NCBI GenBank assembly: GCA_000799755.1
Contig: JUHI01000003.1
Span: 186,001 to 250,000 of the forward strand
Length of the DNA: 64,000 nt
Direction: 5' to 3'
DNA from: Martinezella tropici
GTDB lineage: Bacteria > Pseudomonadota > Alphaproteobacteria > Rhizobiales > Rhizobiaceae
The notes beneath the pieces were generated by a model. The model saw only the letters and a program-made list of their open reading frames with translations. It was not told the origin of the DNA and did no database searches. Positions 24,829-29,217 of the stretch are shown in pieces (positions within the stretch are counted from its first letter, which is position 1; every line of letters begins with the position of its first letter). Made by a program: the position numbers and the translations under genes.

Positions 24829-27970
<3,142 letters not shown>

Positions 27971-27983
<13 letters not shown>

Positions 27984-28366
27984 AATCGTTCCAATCCGTG
28001 TCTGACATTGGCGACATCCTCATCCGTGCCCAGAAGTTCGAACCGATAGAGATACGGCACCTGGCATTTTGTGGAGATAATGTCGCCGGCGATCCCGTAG
28101 GTCGCGCCGAAGTTGCTGTTGCCCGCGGCGATCACCCCGCGGATGTTCGAACGGTTTCCCGCATCATTGAGGAAGCGGATCACCTGCTTGGGCACGGCCC
28201 CCTTTCCTCCTTCGCCGCAATAGGTCGGGACGATGAGGACATAGGGCGAGGTCGCACGAAACTCGTCTCCCGCAGCAAGCGGAATACGGGCGGCCGGCAA
28301 TGCAAGCTTTGCAACAAAGCGATGGGTGTTTTCCGATCGGCTTGAGAAATAGACGATCTCGCCCAT
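27971..28366 (-). CDS. nrdI: NrdI flavodoxin-like activator of class Ib RNR
   Basis: A 131-residue flavodoxin-like protein. The N-terminal FMN loop is [14 protein letters not shown], and [18 protein letters not shown] and [11 protein letters not shown] are NrdI hallmarks. It delivers the oxidant needed to build the manganese cofactor in NrdF. GAGGAG, 8 bases before the start, overlaps the nrdH stop, consistent with coupling. Confidence 0.95.
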
Positions 28367-28377
28367 CGCACAGCTCC

Positions 28378-28599
28378 TCAGGCGAGCGCGCTGATCATGT
28401 CAGGACGGAAACCAGCCCAATGCAGTTCGCCGGCGACAACAACCGGGACCTGACGATAGCCGAGACCCTGCACCAGCTCATAGGCCGCCGAATCGGCAGA
28501 TACGTCGATTATGGTGTAGTCGATACCCTGGCGATCGAGGGCGCGGGTCGTGGCTGTGCATTGAACGCAGGCGGGCTTGCTGTAAACGGTGATGCTCAT
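28378..28599 (-). CDS. nrdH: Glutaredoxin-like NrdH redoxin
   Basis: A 73-residue thioredoxin-fold electron donor for NrdE with the C11-V-Q-C14 active site in [15 protein letters not shown] and the C-terminal [10 protein letters not shown] typical of NrdH. The start at MSITVYSKP is preferred over a 15-codon upstream extension because GAGGA precedes it and homologues begin here. It is the first gene of nrdHIEF. Confidence 0.96.
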
Positions 28600-28866
28600 T
28601 GGATATCCTCGTGTATGGTGTGGGCATGCAAATCGTTCGGGCACCGGATGATGCCCGTTGGTCGGGATGGAGATAGTGGCAAAAGCCTAGCCGGAGCCGG
28701 ACGCTTAAGCGGCCGTCATTCGCGTGGGCGACTATGGATACTCAAGAACATGCACTTCACCCCGAAATCATTCATACGGGGCACTTCGGGAAGCGACGAC
28801 GGCAATCATGCCGCGCAAACCATCGCTCGCCAACCGGACACCCCGCCCGTGGACGCTGTTATTCGA

Positions 28867-29026
28867 GGCAGGTCTCCTGGCTCGCGGGTCAAAACATTCG
28901 TCTCGCCTTCCCAAGGCACAGGGCCTCAGTGACTTTACCCAACGAATGCTCACCGCTCACAGTTGCGGGGGCAGCCCCGGCTTGACAAGCATCATATTTG
29001 CCGACCGGATTCCCATCTTAGCCTCC
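28867..29026 (-). ncRNA. Cobalamin (B12) riboswitch upstream of nrdHIEF
   Basis: Read on the minus strand, the region shows the conserved cobalamin aptamer parts in order: GATGGGAATCCGGT, the core GCCGGGGCTGCCCCCGCAA with CTGTGAGCGG, a GGGAAGGCGA element, and the terminal B12 box AGCCAGGAGACCTGCC at 28867-28882. Adenosylcobalamin binding normally turns the downstream gene off. Placed before a B12-independent reductase, it would shut nrdHIEF when cobalamin is available, presumably because a B12-dependent class II enzyme elsewhere takes over. The aptamer lies about 270 nt before nrdH. Confidence 0.93.
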
Positions 29027-29053
29027 AATTCTTGCGAATCAGCGGAACCTCGA

Positions 29054-29090
29054 ACACTATATATAGTATTCCAGGTTAAAATTACGTCAA
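29054..29090 (-). promoter_or_regulatory. nrd promoter with overlapping NrdR box
   Basis: ACACTATATATAGTAT at 29054-29069 matches the NrdR box consensus (acaCwAtATaTwGtgt) at 15 of 16 positions. On the minus strand a -35 TTGACG (29085-29090) is spaced 17 bp from a -10 ACTATA (29062-29067), so the repressor site covers the -10. Only one box is visible, whereas NrdR sites are often paired. Confidence 0.75.
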
Positions 29091-29198
29091 CTGCTTCGAC
29101 GGCCTACGACCGATTTCCATACTGATACACACAGATAATTTGGCTTGAAGCCTGCACGCAAGGGCTGGACAAGCGCCACGTTACTCTATTACGTTGCA

Positions 29199-29217
29199 TA
29201 TGTAATGTTATTACATA
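29199..29217 (+). promoter_or_regulatory. Zur-like palindrome before the aztD-like gene
   Basis: TATGTAAT GTT ATTACATA has two perfect 8-bp arms around 3 bases and ends 11 bp before the start codon, overlapping the promoter or initiation region. Its AT-rich TGTAAT/ATTACA form resembles Zur operators, and the downstream gene is a zinc-handling protein. Family-level inference. Confidence 0.6.

Follow-up and report, generated by a model that had tools for sequence, protein, structure and literature searches.

An NrdR Box, a Cobalamin Riboswitch, and a Short Upstream ORF before nrdHIEF in Martinezella tropici: A Likely Double Gate on a Class Ib Ribonucleotide Reductase

Introduction

The class Ib ribonucleotide reductase operon nrdHIEF of Martinezella tropici is located on the minus strand of the 64,000-nucleotide stretch of DNA analysed here (the window). 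Its leader contains an NrdR box and a cobalamin riboswitch. This locus raises the question of how nucleotide status and cobalamin supply could act together on one operon, and which start codon the riboswitch would govern.

The combination of NrdR and a cobalamin riboswitch on a class I reductase is already known from nrdAB of Propionibacterium acnes and from Streptomyces. What the sequence comparison would add is the fixed overlap of an operator pair, a promoter, and an aptamer, the co-occurrence with the class II gene nrdJ, and a putative relay from the riboswitch to a short upstream ORF (uORF). The locus is likely a doubly gated class Ib operon, in which a B12 OFF switch would be relayed through translation of the uORF, beside the class II enzyme NrdJ.

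Results

Reductase Genes of the Genome

The genes nrdH, nrdI, nrdE, and nrdF were named by NCBIfam models and are listed with the leader features in Table 1. Among the best 80 of 589 matches, the closest nrdE relatives are those of Rhizobium sp. AC27/96 and R. freirei, at 96% identity. The genome assembly totals 8.05 Mb over 74 contigs and is listed with a contamination of 8.97%. An earlier reading of the window from its letters (the sequence-only reading) had predicted a B12-dependent class II reductase elsewhere in the genome and named nrdJ and nrdR as the genes to look for. One of each was found: a full-length nrdJ frame of 1289 amino acids (2346.7 bits, cut-off 1737) and a single nrdR (153.2 bits, cut-off 124.65). 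The gene cobN is also present. Neither a class Ia nor a class III reductase was found in the genome by searches with the NrdE_NrdA and NRDD models; the former matched nrdE and, weakly, nrdJ and nothing else, and the latter gave no match.

The nrdJ gene has an NrdR box of its own (14/16, positions 946–961 of L012), 180 bp before the ATG at position 1126. Two further NrdR-box-like palindromes, of 12 and 13/16, lie far upstream of nrdJ at L012 positions 450–465 and 701–716.

Table 1. Features of the nrdHIEF leader and operon, in window coordinates.
Feature	Position	Strand	Basis or conservation
Degenerate upstream NrdR box, right half = -35	29085–29100	(-)	Weak in window; backed by relatives
-35 hexamer TTGACG	29085–29090	(-)	Exact in 39/41 leaders (window included)
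NrdR box ATACTATATATAGTGT, containing -10 TACTAT (29068–29063)	29054–29069	(-)	12–15/16 in all 41 leaders
Cobalamin riboswitch aptamer	28850–29067	(-)	RF00174, 111.3 bits
L5 CCCCC, presumed kissing partner of L13	28967–28971	(-)	Sequence
P13 hairpin CGGGC-GGGGT-GTCCG, L13 loop 28844–28840	28835–28849	(-)	95.9% of cells pair, little variation (54 aligned platforms)
Alternative anti-P13 hairpin, L13/P13 strand with anti-Shine-Dalgarno/anti-L13 strand	28776–28846	(-)	Folding, covariation
Anti-Shine-Dalgarno/anti-L13 strand CTTCCCGAAGTGCCCCG	28777–28793	(-)	Complementary to 28768–28754
Hairpin ATTTC-GGGGT-GAAGT with uORF Shine-Dalgarno GGGGTGA (28763–28757)	28754–28768	(-)	Stem of at least 4 bp in 36/40
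uORF, 11 codons, MFLSIHSRPRE*	28716–28751	(-)	Start in window and 39/40 relatives
Hairpin before nrdH	28638–28657	(-)	-14.4 kcal/mol; about 40 nt before nrdH
nrdH Shine-Dalgarno GAGGA	28606–28610	(-)	Sequence
nrdH	28378–28599	(-)	TIGR02194, 100.7 bits
nrdI	27971–28366	(-)	TIGR00333, 160.9 bits
nrdE	25830–27983	(-)	TIGR04170, 1290.1 bits
nrdF	24829–25833	(-)	TIGR04171, 484.4 bits

Promoter, NrdR Boxes, and Aptamer

NrdR boxes were scored against ACACWATATATWGTGT, which we take to be the consensus. The box ATACTATATATAGTGT matches it at 15 of 16 positions and is the best in the window. The next independent NrdR-like site scores 12/16, and the best site across five mononucleotide-shuffled windows scores 13/16. 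The sequence-only reading had this box cover the -10, which it does, and had placed it 28 bp upstream of the riboswitch. No such gap exists; the first 14 bases of the Rfam aptamer match lie inside the box, so that the aptamer starts at about the predicted transcription start. The same reading had called the promoter a good one. As a motif, TTGACG-16-TACTAT (29090–29063) is at chance level, found once against 1.0 expected in shuffles; support for the promoter comes from its conservation, with an identically spaced TTGACG in 39 of 41 leaders.

NrdR reportedly requires two boxes with 15–17 bp between them (PMC12051234). The window has a single clear box; a degenerate candidate for the second, weak in the window itself, lies 31 bp further upstream and leaves 15 bp in between. 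Using a matrix from 34 non-Rhizobiales loci, offset 31 scored highest of 28 offsets over the 41 leaders, with a mean that is itself negative (-11.35), and the runner-up was offset 33 (-16.10). Plain consensus matches separate the two offsets less (7.29 vs 6.95). Box pairs in the 34 non-Rhizobiales loci have a best spacing of 32 bp (31 loci) or 31 bp (3 loci). The upstream boxes of three sister loci (L116, L129, and L118) match at 11–12 of 16 positions, end in TTGAC, and are exactly 31 bp upstream. An A at position -26, outside the -35, is present in 40 of 41 leaders. These comparisons make it likely that an operator pair lies over the -35 and -10, the upstream box being degenerate in the window.

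A perfect inverted repeat, ATGTAAT-AAC-ATTACAT, is found at 29200–29216, where a divergently oriented gene for an aztD-like zinc metallochaperone begins (NF038015, 401.1 bits, cut-off 400). The repeat resembles a metal-regulator operator and is approximately 110 bp upstream of the nrd -35.

The well-formed B12 riboswitch proposed before nrdHIEF was confirmed by the Rfam covariance model, with a full-length match (gathering threshold 31.5 bits, E 4.9e-27) that is the sole RF00174 match at that threshold within the window. The whole genome has ten RF00174 matches, nine of which are above the cut-off. Both L5 and a complementary L13 loop, GGGGT, are present in the window, and their kissing role would be that of known cobalamin riboswitches.

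Forty Rhizobiales loci (L016–L053, L056, and L057) were compared. RF00174 is above gathering upstream of nrdH in all 40, at 110.7–135.6 bits in 39 and at 76.5 bits in L046. The L046 sequence is changed in L5, L13, and other conserved places, and we judge its aptamer to be degenerate; an L5 of the GCTGCCCCCGCAACTG type is absent from it and present in the other 39 leaders. The predicted module of NrdR box, promoter, and aptamer is kept at fixed spacing by these relatives. One of the loci, L041, is from a contig of an Arenimonas-labelled metagenome-assembled genome with a rhizobial nrd module (90% NrdE identity) and is probably mis-binned.

Co-Occurrence of the Riboswitch with nrdJ

The gene nrdJ was sought in 44 genomes (that of M. 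tropici and 43 of the loci, L025 being left out). It is present together with an intact riboswitch in 39 genomes. The five genomes without nrdJ are L046, with its degenerate aptamer, and L054, L055, L058, and L061, which have no riboswitch match in the nrdH leader (Fisher p 9e-7, or 4e-5 if L046 is counted as riboswitch-bearing, with relatedness ignored).

A family set of 199 genomes, which overlaps the first set, has 29 genomes with nrdE, 182 with nrdJ, and 15 with the platform model R1. Among the 29 nrdE-bearing genomes, nrdJ is accompanied by a riboswitch immediately before nrdE in 19, and by none there in two (G344 and G494); eight have neither, and none has the riboswitch without nrdJ (p 1e-5, again ignoring relatedness). 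Every genome with an intact riboswitch on class I genes thus has nrdJ (39/39 and 19/19). Devosia and Brucella/Ochrobactrum each contain both states. A scan of the order Rhizobiales with R1 matched 16 of 297 genomes, three of them strongly; stricter filters lose the weak matches.

By eye, the leaders before nrdHIEF in G494 and G417 (L116 and L129) had seemed to retain riboswitch remnants, which were rejected after a permissive cmscan gave no cobalamin match. Genome G511 has two nrdHIEF copies, on C20 and C61, each with a riboswitch and platform.

The sequence-only reading of a switch between class Ib and class II enzymes is supported by the presence of nrdR, nrdJ, and cobN and by a riboswitch on nrdHIEF that follows nrdJ across genomes. 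The class Ib enzyme is probably made solely when the B12-dependent alternative cannot work.

Expression Platform

After the aptamer, the same elements recur in the leaders in one order: P13 with a GGGGT loop, a hairpin that varies, a C-rich strand, (A)CTTC-GGGGT-GAAG(T) as a strong Shine-Dalgarno (SD) sequence, and an ATG. When the stretch that begins at P13 and stops short of the SD is folded in isolation, its minimum free energy (MFE) structure joins L13 to the 3' arm in each of the 39 leaders with an L13; L026 has lost it. Against dinucleotide shuffles, this anti-P13 segment has a mean z of -2.44 and falls below -2 in 26 of 40 leaders.

A covariance model, R2, was built from six seeds and gave 54 matches in 50 sources. 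On the resulting alignment (A4), which is fitted to the structure and includes the six seeds, the share of paired anti-P13 cells is 90.0%, where shuffles reach 79.2 (sd 0.6). Changes on both sides are seen in 24 of 30 pairs, where shuffles give 15.0 (sd 2.0). Slid anti-P13 structures fall to 40–52% paired. RNAalifold on full MAFFT alignments (A1; 38 leaders) did not recover the anti-P13 hairpin whole, since its middle aligns poorly. The six-sequence seed used for R2 did give the hairpin.

The OFF state, composed of P13 and the C-rich strand on the SD, has 90.2% of its cells paired and no covariation above shuffles on the 54-platform alignment. A Watson-Crick helix of at least 7 bp between anti-SD and SD is formed by 17 of 40 leaders, where shuffles give 2.2 (shuffle maximum 8). 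In energy, this pairing is no stronger than after dinucleotide shuffling of the upstream strand (mean z -0.31). For the window, the MFE of the longer segment is itself an OFF-like state, and the whole leader folds no better than shuffles. An OFF state that masks the SD is compatible with these models, and the anti-P13 hairpin, which covaries, could let one strand alternate between L13 and the uORF SD.

The hairpin that carries the uORF SD (also called P13b) has the same loop sequence as P13, and all five of its pairs vary on both sides, with a stem of at least 4 bp in 36 of 40 leaders. These features would also suit a tandem L13, in which the SD hairpin kisses L5 directly once B12 is bound. 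Such a contact is very unlikely given that the loop varies in length (GGGGT, GGGGTT, GGGGTTT, and GAGGGTT), that the stem is lost in L020, L022, L046, and L049, and that some 80 nt separate the hairpin from the canonical P13 upstream. In L036 (3980–4191), about 100 nt are inserted between P13 and the uORF start, and the start is kept.

Upstream ORF and Spacer

The predicted expression platform ends at the SD and ATG of a short uORF, and not at nrdH. A uORF start with a GGGGTGA-type SD is present in the window and in 39 of 40 relatives, the one without it being Devosia L053. In the window and relatives the uORF is 8–28 codons long, most commonly 20 or 11, and its stop is 98–224 nt before nrdH. 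It was also found in eight genomes added later (L114, L121–L124, and L126–L128), and was not found in L120 by the same script.

The platform elsewhere opens directly into genes. Five of the 54 R2 matches are non-nrd, and in all five the platform ATG is the first codon of metE (781–784 amino acids). In Devosia L053 the platform ATG is the first codon of nrdH. An additional R1 match in G432 (L115, G432:C9:17276-17385) opens directly into a 115-amino-acid NrdH-like, glutaredoxin-like protein. Because the platform ATG starts metE, and nrdH in Devosia, the element is best described as a translation start under putative riboswitch control. The uORF occupies that predicted regulated-start place in the nrdHIEF leaders of Rhizobiaceae and Brucellaceae. 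A metE gene with the same platform is found 2.5–3.8 kb upstream of nrdHIEF in L056 (627–732), L114 (325–433), L024 (367–473), L052 (444–548), and L018 (1352–1459), so that two B12-independent back-up enzymes adjoin.

The uORF peptides are alike within clades only. Selection on the peptide was considered and rejected, as in the larger clades the three codon positions differ at similar rates. A coupling device in which the uORF pairs with the nrdH start was likewise rejected; the MFE of the window hinted at it, and the mean z over 40 leaders is -0.33. No intrinsic terminator was found between the aptamer and nrdH in the window. C exceeds G in 38 of 40 uORF-nrdH spacers, a raw count that is not proof of a rut site. 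Hairpins of differing sequence, apparently comparable to that before nrdH, occur in many relatives.

The uORF could be a by-product of a platform inherited from a metE-type riboswitch, its translation having no effect. B12 would then act on nrdHIEF by terminating transcription or by RNA decay, under the direction of the aptamer or the anti-P13 hairpin. The real start codon carried by the platform at metE, the unconserved peptide, and the distance from uORF stop to nrdH would all fit. We consider this unlikely, as the ATG and SD are kept in 39 of 40 relatives from several genera although the spacer has diverged, and as the stretch from aptamer to nrdH contains no intrinsic-terminator-like site. 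For the same lack of such a site, the elongation in the sequence-only proposal that the riboswitch acts on elongation or translation could mean Rho or polarity alone. The translational half of that proposal agrees with a platform that ends at a start codon, that codon being the uORF's rather than that of nrdH.

Discussion

Proposed Mechanism

The relay through the uORF may be set out in four steps. First, from the operator geometry, NrdR would bind the box pair, 31 bp apart over the -35 and -10, and repress nrdHIEF when nucleotide status is right; nrdJ likewise carries a box. Second, the transcript would start at about the aptamer. Third, when adenosylcobalamin is lacking, the L13/P13 strand would pair with the anti-SD/anti-L13 strand, leaving the uORF SD free; when it is present, L5 would kiss L13, P13 would form, and the freed anti-SD strand would mask the uORF start. 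Fourth, in the weakest of the steps, translation of the uORF, and not its peptide, would protect the long leader from Rho-dependent termination or decay. If uORF translation guards the leader in this manner, B12 would turn nrdHIEF off while NrdJ works. No intrinsic-terminator-like site was found between the aptamer and nrdH, and direct uORF:nrdH pairing is not supported. Rho or decay acting on an untranslated leader would be the simplest link from uORF to nrdH, with a riboswitch-uORF precedent in the pe20 Mbox of Mycobacterium tuberculosis.

Translation of the uORF might instead repress nrdH, as the uORF of M. tuberculosis metE provides a precedent. B12 would then act on the operon in the opposite sense and favour the B12-independent enzyme, contrary to the co-occurrence with nrdJ, and we give this arrangement hardly any credence.

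We tentatively suggest, as a reading with somewhat less than an even chance, that the uORF has the sole start codon under direct riboswitch control in Rhizobiaceae and relatives and is kept for being translated and not for its peptide. The translational B12 switch would thereby reach an operon at a distance, in addition to a promoter with a pair of NrdR operators that extends into the aptamer. If true, relays from a riboswitch to a uORF would not be confined to mycobacteria, and the one proposed here would be shared by several genera and derived from a direct metE or nrdH platform. Sensing would be separated from the controlled operon, and a translational riboswitch could reach genes far downstream. 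The locus would also offer a case in which a single unit of promoter and leader lets bacteria select one of two reductases according to cofactor supply and nucleotide status. A natural series is available for comparison: metE (direct), Devosia nrdH (direct), Rhizobiaceae nrdHIEF (through the uORF), and Brucella rhizosphaerae (nrdJ lost, aptamer degenerate).

Comparison with Known Systems

A literature search, with subscription journals outside it, found no paper joining nrdHIEF, riboswitch, and cobalamin; the uORF may still be reported. B12 elements were reportedly treated by Rodionov in 2003, and Streptomyces by Borovok in 2006. Streptomyces coelicolor nrdABS reportedly has a B12 riboswitch and NrdR, the same two inputs on a class I reductase; it belongs to another phylum and class.

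The nrdAB genes of P. acnes also encode a class I reductase, with a promoter nrd-box, a cobalamin riboswitch, and nrdJ elsewhere (PMC3848588). They differ in being actinobacterial and class Ia, and the passages compared report a single nrd-box and name no uORF or relay.

The cobalamin riboswitch of M. tuberculosis metE is described in PMC11260477 as an OFF switch without an intrinsic terminator, in which a translation initiation region (TIR), an anti-TIR, and an anti-anti-TIR form a relay, L13 being in the last of these. B12 masks the TIR, as supported there by reporters and in-line probing. By analogy, we infer the same relay at the nrdHIEF platform. The M. tuberculosis element differs in controlling metE itself and in having its uORF inside the aptamer, where it is repressive.

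The ppe2 riboswitch of M. tuberculosis is alike in governing a uORF (uPPE2) needed by the downstream gene (PMC11260477). There, the two reading frames share an AUGA overlap and reinitiation couples them, whereas 98–224 nt lie between uORF and gene at nrdHIEF. The pe20 Mbox of M. tuberculosis responds to Mg2+ and has a uORF that encodes a conserved protein, according to PMC12810186. It shares with nrdHIEF a translational platform on a uORF before an operon, and its authors link that platform to Rho while leaving alternatives open.
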